This document shows positions 5,644 to 38,012 of a DNA stretch of 64,000 nucleotides, piece after piece. This stretch comes from Marivita hallyeonensis (lineage in GTDB: Bacteria > Pseudomonadota > Alphaproteobacteria > Rhodobacterales > Rhodobacteraceae). Where the stretch lies: assembly GCF_900129875.1 (NCBI RefSeq), contig NZ_FQXC01000009.1, positions 1-64,000 of the forward strand. The letters run 5' to 3'. The notes below the pieces were generated by a model. It was not told the DNA's origin. It ran no database searches and worked only from the letters and a program-made list of their open reading frames with translations. The translations under genes were made by a program, and so were the position numbers. The first letter of the stretch is position 1, and each line of letters opens with the position of its first letter.

Positions 5644-6459
5644 TTACTGGATCAGCGGCACACCGGTGGTGTCCTGAAGCCAGGTCGCTTCGATTTCAGC
5701 CAGACGTCCGCTGTCCTTGAGCGCACCCAGGGCGGCGTCGACGCATTCCTTGAGCGGGTTGCCGTCTTCCATCAGCATGCCGAAATGGTCCGGGTTATCG
5801 GTTTCGTCCGGTGCAAACTGGCCGATGACCTTAGAGCCTTCGATCATCACCGCGCTCAGGAAAAGCGCGGTCGGCAGGTCGAACAGGGCGGCGTCGATCT
5901 GGTTGGCGCTCATGGCCGCGTTGACGTCGGCATTGTCGCCGTAAAGCAGTGGGTCGCTGTCGGGCTGGATCACGTTCATCAGTTTCGGCACAGCTGTGGT
6001 GGAGCCGACAGCACCCCATTTCAACGCCTTGAGTGCCTCCATCGTGGGGGCGGTGTCGGTCGCGCCGGGGCTGACGAGAACGGCCATCGGGGCCGTGTAG
6101 TAGGGCTCGGAGAAGTCCACAACCTGCTCGCGCTCCGGTGTGATCGAGTATTGCTGCATGTTCACGTCGAAATTTTTGGCACCCGGCTGAATCGCCTCGT
6201 CGAAGGAGGACCGGACCCAAACGACATCCTCGGCGGCAAACCCCATCTCTTCGGCCACCGCATAGGCAACGGCGGCTTCAAACCCTTCGCCGCTTTCCGG
6301 CGCATCGTTGAGCACCCAAGGGTAGTAGGCGGGGTTGCCCGTGGCGATGGTGAACTTGCCATCGGTGAGCGTCTTGCCTGCCGCGCAATGCCCTGCGGCC
6401 ATTGCGACTGTGGTGCTAAGCGCGAATGCTGTGAGTGTGGAGAGAACGTAGGCTTTCAT
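5644..6459 (-). CDS. Amino-acid ABC transporter substrate-binding protein
   Basis: 271 residues. A Sec signal peptide (~1-21, ending AMA-AG) is followed by a family-3 periplasmic binding domain; the segments GFEAAVAYAVAEEMGF, FDVNMQQYSITPEREQVVDFSEPYY and the usual dimeric lobes are visible. It delivers an amino acid to the permease encoded next. It is the first gene of the minus-strand operon and transcribed away from rplB, whose promoter lies in the shared 316-bp spacer. Confidence 0.94.
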   Translation of the reverse strand: MKAYVLSTLTAFALSTTVAMAAGHCAAGKTLTDGKFTIATGNPAYYPWVLNDAPESGEGFEAAVAYAVAEEMGFAAEDVVWVRSSFDEAIQPGAKNFDVNMQQYSITPEREQVVDFSEPYYTAPMAVLVSPGATDTAPTMEALKALKWGAVGSTTAVPKLMNVIQPDSDPLLYGDNADVNAAMSANQIDAALFDLPTALFLSAVMIEGSKVIGQFAPDETDNPDHFGMLMEDGNPLKECVDAALGALKDSGRLAEIEATWLQDTTGVPLIQ

Positions 6460-6603
6460 GGATATGGACCCCGTGTTGGACTGTTTGCGAAAAAGGTATG
6501 AAGCGGACGGGGATGAGTCCAGCGCGATGCTCGCCTGCGTGCTAGAAAGCAGAAGCTGAGGCTACGCTTGCTTCTGACCGTGCAGGTCTGCGGTGAAGTG
6601 TGC

Positions 6604-6632
6604 TTGACCTCATAGGCGTCATTGCCTAGTAA
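6604..6632 (+). promoter_or_regulatory. Candidate sigma70 promoter for the rplB block
   Basis: TTGACC (6604-6609), 17-bp spacer, TAGTAA (6627-6632), about 145 bp before the rplB ATG. The -35 is strong and the -10 is weak. It would restart ribosomal transcription after the first insert. The rest of the spacer 6460-6775 holds leader hairpins and the binding-protein gene's upstream sequence; no gene was found in it. Confidence 0.4.
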
Positions 6633-6645
6633 GCCCCAACCGCGC

Positions 6646-6667
6646 AGCCCCGGATTCGTCCGGGGCT
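6646..6667 (+). promoter_or_regulatory. Leader hairpin upstream of rplB
   Basis: AGCCCCGG / CCGGGGCT arms (6646-6653 and 6660-6667) with a six-base ATTCGT loop, followed by TCGTTGTTG, a poor T-run. It lies between the candidate promoter and rplB. A second small hairpin (CCGGG/CCCGG) follows at 6711-6726. It may be an attenuator or an old terminator. Confidence 0.5.
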
Positions 6668-6775
6668 TCGTTGTTGCGATCATCGGGGACCTTCGGGGCC
6701 CTACAACACGCCGGGTAAATGCCCGGTCTACATAGGCGGGGCAACCCGCCGTCTGCTAAACGGAAGACAGAAAGC

Positions 6776-7618
6776 ATGGCACTCAAGTCGTACAAGCCGA
6801 CGACGCCGGGCCAGCGCGGGCTGGTGCTGATCGACCGTTCGGAGCTGTGGAAAGGCCGTCCGGTCAAAGCCCTTACAGAGGGTTTGACCAAGTCGGGTGG
6901 CCGGAACAACACCGGACGTATCACATCCCGTCGTCGCGGTGGTGGCGCCAAACGGCTCTACCGGATCGTTGATTTCAAACGCAACAAGATGGATGTGGGC
7001 GCAACCGTCGCGCGCATCGAATATGATCCCAACCGGACCGCGTTCATCGCGCTGGTGCAGTATGATGATGGCGAACAGGCCTACATCCTCGCGCCTCAGC
7101 GCCTTGCCATCGGCGATCGCGTGATCGCGTCTGCCAAGGCCGACGTGAAGCCGGGCAATGCGATGCCGTTCTCGGGCATGCCGATTGGTACAATCATTCA
7201 CAATATCGAGCTGAAGCCGGGCAAGGGCGGTCAGATCGCACGCGCCGCAGGCACCTACGCCCAGTTCGTGGGTCGTGACGGCGGCTACGCGCAGATCCGT
7301 CTGAGCTCGGGTGAACTTCGCATGGTCCGTCAGGAATGCATGGCCACCGTTGGTGCCGTGTCGAACCCCGACAACTCGAACCAGAACTTCGGCAAAGCGG
7401 GCCGTATGCGCCACAAGGGCATTCGTCCGTCCGTCCGTGGTGTCGTGATGAACCCGATCGACCACCCGCACGGTGGTGGTGAAGGCCGGACTTCGGGTGG
7501 TCGTCACCCGGTGACCCCATGGGGCAAGCCGACCAAGGGCAAGCGCACCCGCAACAAGAACAAGGCGTCGCAGAGCCTCATCATCCGCTCGCGTCACGCT
7601 AAGAAGAAAGGGCGGTAA
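6776..7618 (+). CDS. rplB: 50S ribosomal protein L2
   Basis: 280 residues, the usual L2 size. L2 binds 23S rRNA at the subunit interface and helps peptidyl transfer; the segments [18 protein letters not shown] and [10 protein letters not shown] contain the conserved functional His. The start at 6776 (MALKSYKP) is preferred over an in-frame upstream codon at 6719 because it matches the family N-terminus. It begins the second ribosomal block, with rpsS 3 nt downstream. Confidence 0.99.
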
Positions 7619-32686: not shown

Positions 32687-33184
32687 ATGAGCATTCACGC
32701 ATCTGTTGAGCAGGGCAAATCCAACGTCGTCCTGGACGGTTATCTGGAAGCGCTGGCGCTTGTCGAACGATTGCACCGGCTTCTGCTGGACGTGATCAAA
32801 GATGAATTCGAACGCGTCGGTATCATTGAGATCAACGCGGTGCAGGCGCTGCTTTTGTTCAATATCGGCGATAACGAGGTCACGGCGGGAGAGCTGAAAA
32901 CCCGCGGCTACTATCAGGGCAGCAATGTCAGCTACAATCTGAAGAAGCTCGTCGAAATGGGCTACATGCATCACCAGCGATGCGAGATTGATCGAAGGTC
33001 GGTGCGGGTGCGCCTTACTGCGCGCGGGCGCGAGATCCGCGATCTGATTTCCGCCCTGTTCGCGCGGCACGCCCACGGATTGCTGAGCAAGAACGTCATC
33101 GATGACGACACGCTCTCGGACATGAGCGATACGCTGCGCCGGATGGAGCGGTACTGGACCGATCAGATCCGCTACATCTACTGA
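32687..33184 (+). CDS. MarR-family winged-helix regulator (LdtR/PetP-like)
   Basis: 165 residues from ATG 32687; an in-frame TTG at 32672 is less likely. The winged helix covers residues ~50-110 (ELKTRGYYQGSNVSYNLKKLVEMGYMHHQR then wing RRSVRVRLT). Such alphaproteobacterial MarR proteins respond to small effectors and repress envelope or cytochrome genes. An inverted repeat sits on its RBS, suggesting autoregulation. Confidence 0.85.
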   Translation: MSIHASVEQGKSNVVLDGYLEALALVERLHRLLLDVIKDEFERVGIIEINAVQALLLFNIGDNEVTAGELKTRGYYQGSNVSYNLKKLVEMGYMHHQRCEIDRRSVRVRLTARGREIRDLISALFARHAHGLLSKNVIDDDTLSDMSDTLRRMERYWTDQIRYIY

Positions 33185-33187
33185 CGC

Positions 33188-33898
33188 CTATCCGGGCCGA
33201 TCCTGATCGACCGGGAGCGCACTCAGGATGCGGTCATTCAATTCGCGGAAAAGCTTGCGGGTCATCGCCTCGCGGTAGCCCTGATAGCCTAGGGACGTTT
33301 CGACAAACGCACCGAAACCGTAGCGCACCTCACGCTGAAAATAGTCGATCACCTCGGGCGCGCTGCCCAGAACAGCCAGACCGTTGACGGTGACATTGGC
33401 GAAGGGAAAGTTCTTGTAGGCAAGGCGCGGTGGGAAGCCATCGTTGTTCTCTCCATCGCCGGACACGTCGATGACCTGCCGGTCGCACTCTGGTCCGCGT
33501 GCGAGCAGGGTGGCTCCGTAGCCAAGGGCGTAGCCCATCGCGGTCGGGAACCGGGTGTGGCTGCGCGGGCTGGATGTAAGTGTAGCGATCAGATCATCAA
33601 TCGCGGCGCCATCGGTGAGGGCGACCCAGTCACGCACCATCGTGCTTTGTCGCCGACCGCTCCATTCGTAGATGGCGATAGAGACATACCCCGGCCCTTC
33701 GAGGATCGCCGAGCGGATGGTGGGATCATCTAGAGCCGCCGCGAGGCCATCGCGCTGAAGCACGTATTCCTCGGCATCCACCGAAGATGACACATCGAGG
33801 GCAAGGACTAGGGCCAGCCTGCAATGCTCTTGCGCCACCGCCGCCACCGGCAGGACCGAGGCGGCGAGCGCTGCCAGCACTGCAAGCTGAATGCGCAC
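33188..33898 (-). CDS. DUF1194 (VWA-like) secreted protein
   Basis: 236 residues from GTG 33898, chosen to clear the upstream glyoxalase stop at 33904; a longer frame to 33937 exists. A signal peptide (~1-23, ending AVA-Q) precedes a VWA-like metal site DVSSSVD and a TRFPTAMGYAL / VIDVSGDGENN pair typical of DUF1194. Probably periplasmic, function unknown. Confidence 0.85.
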   Translation of the reverse strand: MRIQLAVLAALAASVLPVAAVAQEHCRLALVLALDVSSSVDAEEYVLQRDGLAAALDDPTIRSAILEGPGYVSIAIYEWSGRRQSTMVRDWVALTDGAAIDDLIATLTSSPRSHTRFPTAMGYALGYGATLLARGPECDRQVIDVSGDGENNDGFPPRLAYKNFPFANVTVNGLAVLGSAPEVIDYFQREVRYGFGAFVETSLGYQGYREAMTRKLFRELNDRILSALPVDQDRPG

Positions 33899-33903
33899 GC
33901 AGC

Positions 33904-34332
33904 TTACCAGTGGCCGGTGTTCTCCATACTGGCCCAAGGCTCCTGCGGCGGCAGAGAGTCGCCCGCTTGCAGCAGTTCAATCGATATGTTGTCGGGCGAG
34001 CGCACAAATGCCATGTGACCATCGCGCGGCGGACGATTGATCGTGACGCCATTGTCCATCAGGTGCTGGCACATCTCGTAGATGTTATCGACGCGGTAGG
34101 CGAGGTGGCCGAAATGGCGGCTGTCCGACGGCAATCCGTCGTCTCCGTCCCAGTTGTAGGTCAGCTCGACCGGGCACTCTTCCTGACCTTCGGGCGCCAT
34201 GAAGATCAGGGTGAATCGACCATTTTCGTTGTCCATCCGCCGCGTTTCCTTCAGGCCAAGCAGCCCGTAGAATTTCATCGACGCGTCCAGGTCTTTCACG
34301 CGCACCATCGTGTGGAGATATCGAAGAGCCAT
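33904..34332 (-). CDS. gloA: Lactoylglutathione lyase (glyoxalase I)
   Basis: 142 residues with the two beta-alpha-beta-beta-beta modules. Metal ligands appear as His7 (YLHTMVRV), Glu56 in VELTYNWD, His74 in HFGHLAYRV, and the late Glu119 in ISIELLQ. It converts the methylglyoxal–glutathione hemithioacetal to lactoylglutathione. The downstream DUF1194 gene begins 6 nt after its stop. Confidence 0.94.
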   Translation of the reverse strand: MALRYLHTMVRVKDLDASMKFYGLLGLKETRRMDNENGRFTLIFMAPEGQEECPVELTYNWDGDDGLPSDSRHFGHLAYRVDNIYEMCQHLMDNGVTINRPPRDGHMAFVRSPDNISIELLQAGDSLPPQEPWASMENTGHW

Positions 34333-34400
34333 CTTATCCTCGCTGAGTCTGTTTCGACAAAGCTAAGCTATCGTCCCGCCGTGTCGAGCCGGAAACGCCT

Positions 34401-35765
34401 CTAGAATGCGGACCGAATGCCGAGACGAATGCCGAAGTTCTCGGTCTCATAGAGGTCGAGGTTGGCGTCCGTCCGCTCTGCTTTCAGCGTGACCGTCGGA
34501 ATGAACCCATAGAAATCGAAGTCCGGCAAGGCGGCGGTGATCGACGCCTCGACGCTGCGCTCTTCGCGCCCGTCGGAGGTGAGGTTGGAAACCTCATGTG
34601 TCTTGTCGGACACCGTGACCCCGAAGTCCCACAGCGCCCGTCCAATCGGCTGGGACAGACTGTACCGCACTCCAATTTCGCGCTTCGTATAATCAAGGTA
34701 GTCGGCGTCGCTCTCCGACTCGATAAGAGTGGCGGACAGCGAAATCCGGTTGCCGTTTTCAAGGCGGTGGCCGTAGCCGACGGCTCCGGTCCAGATCGAT
34801 GCATCATCGCGCCCGTTCAGCCCGTCCTGCGCCTCATGCGACAAGGACAGGTTCAGCAACCCACTCTCGCCAACGACGGTGCGATACTCCGTGCCAAGAC
34901 GGCTGTATCGCAAAAGGTCGTCGCCGCCGAAGGTCACCTTCCCGACACGCGCGTTCCAGCCAAGGTGTGTGCCGGTTTCGGACAGCTGGAACAACTGCTG
35001 CACCCCAATCGCGGCTGAGCTGGTGGCGAAATCTGATCCGTCTGCATCGGGTGCAATCTCCTTGGCATCGTCGGACAGTACGTAGCTGCGATGCTGTGCG
35101 GAAAAGAAAAGATCGGTCCGTCGCGTGCTGGATTGCTGCAGGCGATAGCGCGTACTCAGACCGGTTGATATCTCGACCCCGGACAAAGCCCGCGCTTCGC
35201 CCTGCAGCTGGAAATCAAGCGGCAGGTCGAAGAGTTCCGACGTCTCGTTCCGACTGCCATTGTTGATGTTGGAGCTCGGGGAAATCGAAAAACTCAGGTA
35301 GGTCGACCACCGGTTCTGCGCCCGCACGTACTGAAAATCCCGCGCCGCGCGGGTTTTCAACTGATCATTCGGCGCAATCTGCGCCGCGCGCCGCAACCAC
35401 CACTGCGCCCGAGTATTGTTGCCCGCCGACGCCAAAGCCTGAGCTTGGGCCAAGGCCGCCGCATAGCGCGCACGGTCGAAATCTGCCAAATCCCAGGCCC
35501 TGCGCGCGTGTTCGAGGGCTGTATCGTACCGCCCAAGATCGCGGGCGGCGCGTGACCTGATCAGCTGCGCGTCGATGTCGTTTGCGTCGCGCTGCAACAA
35601 GGCGCCGGCCAGATCGTAGGCCACGTCCGGACGCCCTTGGAGCACGGCCTGGCTGGCCACCTCGCGCATTTCAGCCGGGCTGAGCACGACCTCCGCAGAC
35701 GCGGTGGCCCCCGTGAAGAGCAGGGCCACCGCCGCAACGATGTTTCTGGCAGCTATCAGGGACAT
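34401..35765 (-). CDS. Slam-like outer-membrane protein (surface lipoprotein assembly modifier)
   Basis: 454 residues from ATG 35765. Signal peptide ~1-25; residues ~30-160 form TPR-like helices (VAYDLAGALLQRDANDIDAQLIRSRAARDLGRYDTALEHARRAW shortened pattern A-x2-A-x3); the rest is a series of amphipathic beta strands ending in Phe (GIRSAF), an outer-membrane barrel. This two-part build is that of Slam (DUF560), which moves lipoproteins to the cell surface. It starts 1 nt after the lipoprotein stop. Confidence 0.75.
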   Translation of the reverse strand: MSLIAARNIVAAVALLFTGATASAEVVLSPAEMREVASQAVLQGRPDVAYDLAGALLQRDANDIDAQLIRSRAARDLGRYDTALEHARRAWDLADFDRARYAAALAQAQALASAGNNTRAQWWLRRAAQIAPNDQLKTRAARDFQYVRAQNRWSTYLSFSISPSSNINNGSRNETSELFDLPLDFQLQGEARALSGVEISTGLSTRYRLQQSSTRRTDLFFSAQHRSYVLSDDAKEIAPDADGSDFATSSAAIGVQQLFQLSETGTHLGWNARVGKVTFGGDDLLRYSRLGTEYRTVVGESGLLNLSLSHEAQDGLNGRDDASIWTGAVGYGHRLENGNRISLSATLIESESDADYLDYTKREIGVRYSLSQPIGRALWDFGVTVSDKTHEVSNLTSDGREERSVEASITAALPDFDFYGFIPTVTLKAERTDANLDLYETENFGIRLGIRSAF

Positions 35766-35766
35766 G

Positions 35767-36894
35767 TTACTGTCGGTAAATGATGAAACCACCAGATTCC
35801 TGAACGGTGGAGTCGTTCCGTGGGTCGCCACCTTCGATCACGAGGACGCCGACGATCTCGCTCGCATCCGTCCCGGAAACGATGCCGAAATAAGTACCTT
35901 CCGCGGTTGTGACGATAGAACCATCGTCGAAGCGCGCGCGCTCTGCGATGTCTCCCGTGATTTCCCCGTTGGTATCGGCATTCGTGGGTGACACAATCGA
36001 TGCAAGGTTCGGCAGTACCGGGTTGCCAGCATCATCTGTGAGAATGATGAGGTTGCGCGACGGGGCGCCATCGCCGGAAGCGCCGCCGTTGTCCGCTCCG
36101 ATGGCCGCGAGGTAGTCGTTGGTAATGTCGTTCCCGTTCACATCGAACAGGCGACGGTCACGTACGAAAAGGGCGACACCGCGCTGGCCGTTGTTAAAGT
36201 CTTTGAAATCGAGGAACAGTTCCGCCTCACCCGAAACATATTCGAGCCCGGACTGGCCATCGAAGATCCGGATCCCAGCATATTCGCCGACATACTGCGC
36301 ATCACCGTCCTCCGGCAGCACGAGCCGCACTGGGTCGCCGTTAAAATCAGTTGAGTTGCGCTGATAGACGAAGCCGCCGAAGCCGTAGTCGATATAAGAG
36401 CCGGTGCGCACGATGGCGAATTCGGTCTGGCCGGTGCGGCTGCGACCGTAGACGGCTCGATACTGGAAGGTTCCCAGCACGTTGCCGGTGTCGGGGTCGA
36501 CAGTGCTTTCCGCGCCTTCATAAACGCCGAAGCCGGCAAGCTGGCTGACGGCCGTACCGCGCTCGTAGACGTTGTCACCGTCGAAGGCGAGGTTGTCGAC
36601 GACGAACTGGTCCTGACCCTGATCGTTCAGGTAGCGCACGTTTTCGGCGAAACCGCCGCCATCGTCCGTCCGTTCTTCGGTGCGCACGATGCTCGAGTCG
36701 GGCGTCGGTTCCGCCGTCCCGGGAGGCAATTCCCGGTCGCTGTCGATGGGTGTGGCATCCGGATCGGTTTCGCCATCCGTGGGCGTATCGGTATCCGGAT
36801 CTTCTTCCACGGGCGGGTTCAAAACATCGCCGCCACCGCTGTCACAGGCGGCTACGAAACCAAAACACAGGATCAGGAATAGAATGCGCGTCAT
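35767..36894 (-). CDS. Lipoprotein, candidate Slam substrate (TbpB-like)
   Basis: 375 residues. Lipobox VAAC (Cys17), then a ~60-residue Asp/Pro/Thr-rich stalk, then a beta-rich domain. Two parts recall TbpB/Slam-substrate barrels: the EAELFLDFKDFNNGQRGV strand region and the end GTYFGIVSGTDASEIVGVLV ... ESGGFIIYR, like the FYGP-x-EVxG hallmark. Its gene precedes and nearly abuts the Slam-like gene. The ligand is unknown. Confidence 0.7.
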   Translation of the reverse strand: MTRILFLILCFGFVAACDSGGGDVLNPPVEEDPDTDTPTDGETDPDATPIDSDRELPPGTAEPTPDSSIVRTEERTDDGGGFAENVRYLNDQGQDQFVVDNLAFDGDNVYERGTAVSQLAGFGVYEGAESTVDPDTGNVLGTFQYRAVYGRSRTGQTEFAIVRTGSYIDYGFGGFVYQRNSTDFNGDPVRLVLPEDGDAQYVGEYAGIRIFDGQSGLEYVSGEAELFLDFKDFNNGQRGVALFVRDRRLFDVNGNDITNDYLAAIGADNGGASGDGAPSRNLIILTDDAGNPVLPNLASIVSPTNADTNGEITGDIAERARFDDGSIVTTAEGTYFGIVSGTDASEIVGVLVIEGGDPRNDSTVQESGGFIIYRQ

Positions 36895-37106
36895 CGGAAA
36901 GTCTGCCTCGGTTTGCTCTGGTCTTTTTCACGACCTCTGGCGGGACCGTCCGGCAGAGGCGTGTGAAAGTCAACGCAAAGCAACCGGGGGTGGATGAAAA
37001 AGCGGCGAAGTGCGGCGCGGATGCAAGACACCATCCTTGGTGGTTCCTACATACGCACCCCCGAGATATAGTAAGGTCCGACTCATCCTAGTGGAAAGGA
37101 TTCGCC

Positions 37107-38012
37107 ATGCCCCTGTCGCTGGAACAAGAGGCCGAAATCAAGGAGTTGCGCGCTGCGCCGCAGAACACGCTGCGCGCGGTGAGTGAGGGGATGGAGCGCC
37201 ACCTCTACACGGCGTACCCGGTGCTCGACCACGGGTTCATCCGGGTGGTGGATTACATGGGCGACGATGCCGCGATCTGTCAGGCGGCGCGGGTGTCGTA
37301 CGGCAAGGGCACGAAATCCGTACAGAACGACGAAGGGCTGATCCGCTACCTCATGCGGCACTGGCATTCGACGCCGTTCGAGATGTGCGAGATCAAGCTG
37401 CACGTCAAACTGCCGGTCTTCGTCGCGCGGCAGTGGATCCGGCACCGCACCGCAAACGTCAACGAATACTCGGCCCGGTACTCGATCCTCGACCGGGAAT
37501 TCTACATCCCCGCGCCCGAACACCTGGCCGCGCAATCGGTGGTGAACAACCAGGGCCGCGGTGCGGCGTTGGAGGGCGAGGAAGCCGACCGCGTGCTGCG
37601 CTACCTGCGCGACGATGCAATGCGCTGCTACGACCATTACGAGGAAATGATCAGCCAGGACGGCCAGCAGGGCCTTGCCCGCGAGTTGGCGCGGATGAAC
37701 CTGCCCGCCAATATCTACACGCAATGGTATTGGAAGGTGGATCTGCACAATTTGCTGCACTTCCTGCGCCTGCGAGCGGACGCCCACGCGCAATTCGAGA
37801 TCCGCGTCTATGCCGAGGAAATCTGCAAGGTCGTCGCCGACTGGGTGCCGTTTGCCTATCGCGCGTTCGAGGACTACCGCATGGGCGGCGCGACGCTGTC
37901 TTCTACAGCGTTGGACTGTGTCCGGCGGATGCTGAAGGGCGAGACGGTGACGCAGGAGAATTCCGGCATGTCCAAGGGGGAATGGCGGGAGTTTGAAGCG
38001 GTTTTGAACTGA
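37107..38012 (+). CDS. thyX: Flavin-dependent thymidylate synthase
   Basis: 301 residues. The ThyX signature [15 protein letters not shown] is at residues ~112-126, preceded by FVARQWI. It makes dTMP from dUMP with FADH2 and methylene-THF, independent of ThyA. GGAAAGG precedes ATG 37107. The 212-bp upstream spacer holds no gene. Confidence 0.98.

Follow-up and report, generated by a model that had tools for sequence, protein, structure and literature searches.

The closest described systems are the Slam exporters of Neisseria, the NilB/NilC pair of Xenorhabdus and a marine group of T11SS loci. In the neisserial systems Slam1 and Slam2, the exporter joins a TPR domain to a 14-strand barrel, and the cargos TbpB, fHbp and HpuA carry a lipobox and a C-terminal 8-strand barrel and are often encoded by a neighbouring gene (Hooda et al. 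2017, PMC5449769, available portion). Xenorhabdus pairs a DUF560-family exporter with a dedicated surface lipoprotein, and host colonisation requires both NilB and NilC (PMC8406197, available portion). The accessible text of Grossman et al. (2025; PMC12282271) describes a marine type of T11SS locus, "cluster 3", from Rhodobacteraceae and Roseobacteraceae: its gene set comprises ThyX, glyoxalase, DUF1194 and exporter, and 10 of the 11 loci examined also hold a cargo lipoprotein of 282-375 aa, Pseudooceanicola marinus LMG 23705 being the one locus without cargo. The same text describes cargo as rare by sequence (31 ORFs for 145 exporters, 0.21 per exporter), places all experimentally verified T11SS exporters in its cluster 1 and leaves undecided whether marine cluster 3 exporters still possess cargo. 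Searches of the open-access literature, as far as it was accessible, brought up no experimental study of any marine representative of the cluster 3-type group.

Here, we analysed a stretch of 64,000 nucleotides from Marivita hallyeonensis contig NZ_FQXC01000009.1 (the window) and found a locus of this kind on its minus strand, with the following features.

37107..38012, plus strand: flavin-dependent thymidylate synthase ThyX, divergent (PF02511; relative in 62 of the best 80 of 89 loci)
36966..36973, minus strand: TTGACTTT, conserved -35-like element 5' of the cargo gene (motif count in upstream regions)
35767..36894, minus strand: putative cargo lipoprotein of T11SS/Slam type, 375 aa (sequence, fold model, PDB fold matches)
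36847..36894, minus strand: signal peptide II, residues 1-16, ending in the lipobox VAAC with Cys17 as mature residue 1 (sequence)
36697..36846, minus strand: acidic, Asp/Glu-rich stalk predicted to be disordered, mature residues 1-50 (low pLDDT over residues 1-40)
36307..36696, minus strand: predicted N-terminal beta (handle/effector) domain, mature residues 51-180 (strands in the model)
35770..36306, minus strand: predicted C-terminal 8-strand barrel, mature residues 181-359 (model strands; TbpB/HphA/fHbp fold matches)
34401..35765, minus strand: putative Slam-like T11SS outer-membrane protein, 454 aa from ATG (sequence, SlipAM profile, fold model)
35316..35693, minus strand: predicted periplasmic TPR-like domain of seven helices, mature residues 1-126 (model; TPR profile matches)
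34404..35309, minus strand: predicted 14-strand outer-membrane barrel, mature residues 129-430 (model with 14 long strands)
33904..34332, minus strand: glyoxalase-family neighbour, GloA-like (PF00903; relative in 68 of the best 80 of 89 loci)
33188..33937, minus strand: DUF1194 neighbour, vWA-like, with a DxSxS motif (PF06707, E 4.5e-63; relative in 63 of the best 80 of 89 loci)

The lipoprotein gene is followed after 1 base by the exporter gene and then by the glyoxalase-family and DUF1194 genes, while the ThyX gene lies divergently on the upstream side of the lipoprotein gene. The initial annotation had described a lipoprotein with a VAAC lipobox, an acidic stalk and the motif SEIVGVLV, with a TPR plus outer-membrane barrel gene 1 nt behind it; sequence, coordinates and the exporter's fold model bear this out, and the lipoprotein ends in ESGGFIIYRQ. 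Both proteins have relatives at roughly 27-57% identity among 149 genomes of the family, so that a chance pair of open reading frames is ruled out. The window DUF1194 protein (33188-33937) has the motif DVSSS and a signal-like N-terminus.

We consider the two genes to form a Slam/T11SS export unit, carried by an alphaproteobacterium from the Rhodobacteraceae/Roseobacteraceae group; its lipoprotein is predicted to be moved to the cell surface, and we assign this reading a probability of about 0.88. The gene order, the domain folds, the family links, the conservation of the pair and its joint replacement in Sulfitobacter were obtained by computation. An alphaproteobacterial Slam system had already been proposed in the initial annotation, and the exporter fold, the cargo fold and the family-wide pairing now support it. 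The locus shares with Slam1 and Slam2 and their cargos the predicted exporter architecture, the lipobox, the predicted C-terminal barrel and the adjoining genes, and differs in a low sequence similarity (a sub-threshold profile match) and in having no TonB receptor nearby, as compared with the accessible text of PMC5449769. It shares with NilB/NilC a putative DUF560-family exporter with a dedicated lipoprotein, but the Xenorhabdus pair belongs to another lineage (PMC8406197, in the portion available). Judged by its gene set, the window locus is a further case of the published cluster 3 type: in a Rhodobacteraceae-type genome, the pair is flanked by genes for ThyX, glyoxalase and DUF1194, and exporter, cargo, ThyX, glyoxalase and DUF1194 are common to both, with a window cargo of 375 aa (PMC12282271, in the portion available).

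The window lipoprotein carries the lipobox and the exporter-adjacent gene of a Slam-dependent surface lipoprotein. A model built with 62 aligned mature cargos (alignment A5, which includes the window cargo and retains 61 of 65 usable relatives) reached a pLDDT of 88 and comprises the stalk, the N-terminal beta domain and the C-terminal 8-strand barrel, the last of which is predicted to be of the TbpB/fHbp type. In a Foldseek search of the PDB, TbpB chains came out on top (E 5e-6), HphA and fHbp were among the 13 matches at E<=0.001 and NHBA stood further down, as did the generic 8-strand barrels PsbO, Ail and OmpX; TM-scores by query length were only about 0.3 and the rmsd was high. Mean conservation over the 62 cargos was 0.41 in the stalk, 0.57 in the N-terminal beta domain and 0.54-0.60 across the folded domains. 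Since the A5 sequences are trimmed at the lipobox Cys, invariance of this residue in A5 is uninformative; the fair test is alignment A2 (5 of 29 relatives dropped), in which the Cys column is invariant in all 25 uncut rows. Four near-duplicate loci (L078, L087, L104, L117) were removed from A5 and from the exporter alignment A6.

By sequence, the window cargo matched none of the Pfam and NCBIfam profiles, including TbpB_B_D, FHBP_C and slam_lipo, and had no convincing match in the PDB. Likewise, PDB sequence searches with single proteins returned no match in one case and E 1.9 or worse in another, and the cargo profile found nothing among the PDB sequences. Among the 62 aligned cargos, matches at E<=0.1 were obtained for FHBP_C in 25, for slam_lipo in 10 and for TbpB_B_D in 4. 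The link to TbpB-domain profiles that the initial annotation had put forward for checking is thus found in some relatives and is absent for the window cargo itself, while the structures it had anticipated, a TPR domain with 14 strands and a barrel in the lipoprotein, are both present in the models.

What could such a lipoprotein bind? The fold neighbours TbpB and the haemophore HphA would fit a lipoprotein that captures haem, iron or another transition metal in the manner of TbpB or haemophilin and feeds a distant TonB receptor. Differing from the neisserial cargos in the accessible text of PMC5449769, however, the window cargo has a single lobe and its mature form holds no His, Met or Trp, its sole Cys being the lipidated one. 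Across the 62 aligned cargos, the lipobox Cys at which they were trimmed aside, His, Met, Cys and Trp all stay below 60% in every column, and the net charge is -44 for the window cargo and -33 on average for the 62. The only PF00593 TonB-receptor match of the whole Marivita hallyeonensis genome lies on contig C9, whereas the window lies on contig C20; the earlier remark that no TonB receptor lies near the pair therefore holds. Composition, charge and the location of this receptor match argue against haem or iron capture, which we regard as unlikely; the argument may leave room for Tyr-mediated or protein ligands.

The upstream regions point in the same direction. Three metal-box patterns were found in none of 52 upstream regions (58 before removal of near-duplicates), and a fourth metal-regulator pattern occurred in 3 of 52, near the shuffled level of 2.05. 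A -35-like element is shared instead: TTGACT is present in 36 of the 52 non-redundant 230-nt regions (shuffle maximum 13), and 45 of 60 TTGAC occurrences sit 60-79 nt from the start. A sigma-70 scan of 33100-37200 gave no full promoter. On residue composition, TonB-receptor location and upstream patterns, we rejected metal capture as the main role, and a capture protein of the TbpB or haemophilin kind seems improbable; the same three lines support the proposal of the initial annotation that the system need not serve iron. Our leading guess is a surface binding or adhesion protein, perhaps produced constitutively.

Is a cargo beside the exporter common among relatives of this locus? Our first survey took the best 80 of 89 named loci from a single pattern-based scan, which biases the sample toward closer relatives. 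The cargo profile matched 73 of these 80, including one locus (L134) in which the cargo is in three pieces. Among the cargo-negative loci, one contig begins just before the exporter (L133); the gene next upstream of the exporter encodes another kind of lipobox protein in two (L137, L140), and in four (L129, L131, L135, L136) neither the cargo profile nor reading of the loci showed one there. Of 72 single-ORF cargos, 66 contain the lipobox pattern, and of the six that do not, several are truncated at the end of their contig. Where the gap could be measured (70 of 81 loci, the best 80 of 89 plus the window), the exporter's first in-frame start follows the cargo stop at a median of 4 nt and within 60 nt in 68 of 70, although true starts may be further on. 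Further neighbours in the best 80 of 89 loci, several of them short contigs, were MarR (58/80), XRE (51/80) and an aminotransferase (50/80).

A second survey covered 149 genomes, one per genus of the family. The exporter profile matched 87 of them, 74 strongly (E<1e-70). In 49 of the 74, cargo profile A2 matched beside the exporter; nine weak or partial A2 matches were re-read, and all nine are lipobox proteins that A5, a broader profile, also recognises (42-153 bits). Profile A5 further found an upstream cargo in 19 of the 25 A2-negative genomes (23-58 bits). By profile, a cargo consequently lies next to the exporter in 68 of 74 strong-exporter genomes. Two cases judged by eye raise this to 70 of 74: L174 encodes a lipobox protein that ends as the cargos do, and the L172 contig begins within a gene of cargo-like C-terminus. 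One locus has only a short, different lipoprotein upstream of the exporter (L168), and in three (L163, L164, L178) A2, A5 and reading of the regions gave no cargo upstream. In wider samples, the cargo profile matched 23 of 101 genomes drawn from the order, all in the window's own family, and 1 of 289 drawn across the class, the window's own.

These profile-based counts confirm that the gene pair is widespread in Rhodobacteraceae, for which the initial annotation had proposed a survey; relatives seem to carry the pair very commonly, and, as judged by profile, a cargo beside a strongly matching exporter is the rule and not a rarity in the family. The 68 of 74 genomes stand against the rare co-occurrence given in the accessible text of PMC12282271. 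The difference extends to the locus of P. marinus LMG 23705, for which that text reports no cargo, whereas the record we read (L089) encodes an intact 342-aa cargo at 5857-6885. A dedicated cargo next to nearly every such exporter makes cluster 3 export experimentally addressable.

Some cargos of the family (L156, L159, L165, L169-L171, L175-L177 and others) carry a short C-terminal extension with two Cys (C-G-T...C), which is absent from the window cargo. A genome of the window's own genus (G501) holds two cargo-family copies, on contigs C9 and C25. The weaker exporter matches in the family (L185-L195) are apparently further T11SS types, some of them (for example L185, L187 and L192) with an upstream lipobox protein of TbpB-like ending.

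We further compared how the two genes are inherited. For the 35 loci in which six genes were complete, the distances of cargo and exporter correlated at 0.735 (partial 0.77; reached in 0 of 999 permutations), as against 0.03-0.18 for cargo and flanking-gene distances. L114 and L122, both from Sulfitobacter, account for much of this correlation: the cargo-exporter partial was 0.76 over 32 loci and dropped to 0.46 over the 30 that remain without them, and the cargo-flank correlations rose to 0.35-0.37. Between L099 and L122, the four flanking proteins are 87-92% identical, while the cargos share only 31% and the exporters 29%; between L099 and L100, the flanks average 88%, the cargos 74% and the exporters 60%. 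In trees built by fast search with midpoint rooting on a set that leaves the window's own locus outside, L114 and L122 cluster together, far from other Sulfitobacter, for cargo and exporter but not for the flanks. AU tests, for which three near-duplicates of the 35 loci were removed, rejected the flank tree for cargo and for exporter, and likewise the exporter tree for the cargo and the cargo tree for the exporter; because ThyX alone likewise rejects the combined flank tree (the aminotransferase does not), these tests are strict.

A joint replacement of cargo and exporter between conserved flanks, at least once and in some Sulfitobacter, is well supported by these identities and trees; outside the Sulfitobacter type, the trees look mostly vertical. 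The replacement points to a need for exporter and cargo to fit each other, a matter of interest for substrate recognition by Slam. More tentatively, and with the odds against it, the pair might be an exchangeable surface cassette of marine Rhodobacteraceae, replaced jointly by recombination in the conserved flanks under pressure from phages, predators or host surfaces, with the strongly acidic, His-, Met- and Trp-free cargo as a non-metal adhesin or receptor. If so, a cell would swap its surface protein yet keep the matched exporter.

The pairing and its joint replacement also bear on the possibility, raised for cluster 3 in the accessible text of PMC12282271, that the exporter chiefly serves the DUF1194 (vWA/MIDAS) protein encoded nearby, with the lipoprotein as an accessory or relic. 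A DUF1194 relative occurs in 63 of the best 80 of 89 loci, and the same text counts DUF1194 in 102 of 145 cases; the lipoprotein, however, is found in 73 of the same 80, short contigs depressing both counts. The lipoprotein gene lies directly upstream of the exporter, whereas the DUF1194 gene lies beyond the glyoxalase gene; moreover, the predicted fold of the lipoprotein is that of known cargos, in Sulfitobacter the lipoprotein and exporter genes were exchanged jointly, and profile search detects three more DUF1194 matches elsewhere in the Marivita hallyeonensis genome. We therefore hold DUF1194 as the main substrate to be very unlikely.

The exporter's AlphaFold2 model, built on an alignment of 72 mature exporters with the window's first (A6, with 71 of 75 usable relatives retained), has a mean pLDDT of 95 and shows seven helices followed by 14 long strands, the predicted Slam/T11SS architecture of N-terminal TPR domain and 14-strand barrel. 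The protein ends in ...IRSAF, and a terminal Phe is typical of outer-membrane barrels. Against the SlipAM/DUF560 profile (PF04575), the window exporter scored 20.9-21.2 bits (E about 2.5e-4), just below the cut-off of 22. The HMM check against SLAM (DUF560) that the initial annotation had suggested gave matches at E<=0.01 for 63 of the 72 aligned exporters, with the window's among them and 1.5e-12 as the best value; a search of the window's whole genome with the profile returned nothing at E<=0.001, likewise in 14 control genomes. Among the PDB sequences, the exporter profile picked out chiefly TPR proteins, and Slam was absent from the 50 PDB fold matches listed for the model. That BcsC and porins head this Foldseek result could suggest that the lipoprotein is a usual one facing the periplasm and that its neighbour is a TPR-porin of unrelated task, e.g. 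BcsC-like polysaccharide export, but this is extremely improbable and a BcsC-like glycan exporter was rejected despite the fold match, given the SlipAM matches in 63 of 72 aligned exporters, the predicted Slam-cargo fold of the lipoprotein, and the longer TPR region and 16-strand barrel of BcsC.

By analogy with Slam systems, the lipoprotein of the two-gene export unit would cross the inner membrane via Sec, would be lipidated at Cys17 and would be carried to the outer membrane by Lol. There, the periplasmic TPR domain of the exporter may recruit it, probably via the 8-strand barrel at the lipoprotein's C-terminus, and the exporter's own 14-strand barrel would pass it to the cell surface, where lipid and stalk would hold it with the N-terminal beta domain facing outward.

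Broken copies of the pair were also seen in the named loci: a stop codon splits the exporter in L090, both cargo and exporter are in pieces in L134, and the exporter is in pieces in L138, through either decay or sequencing error.
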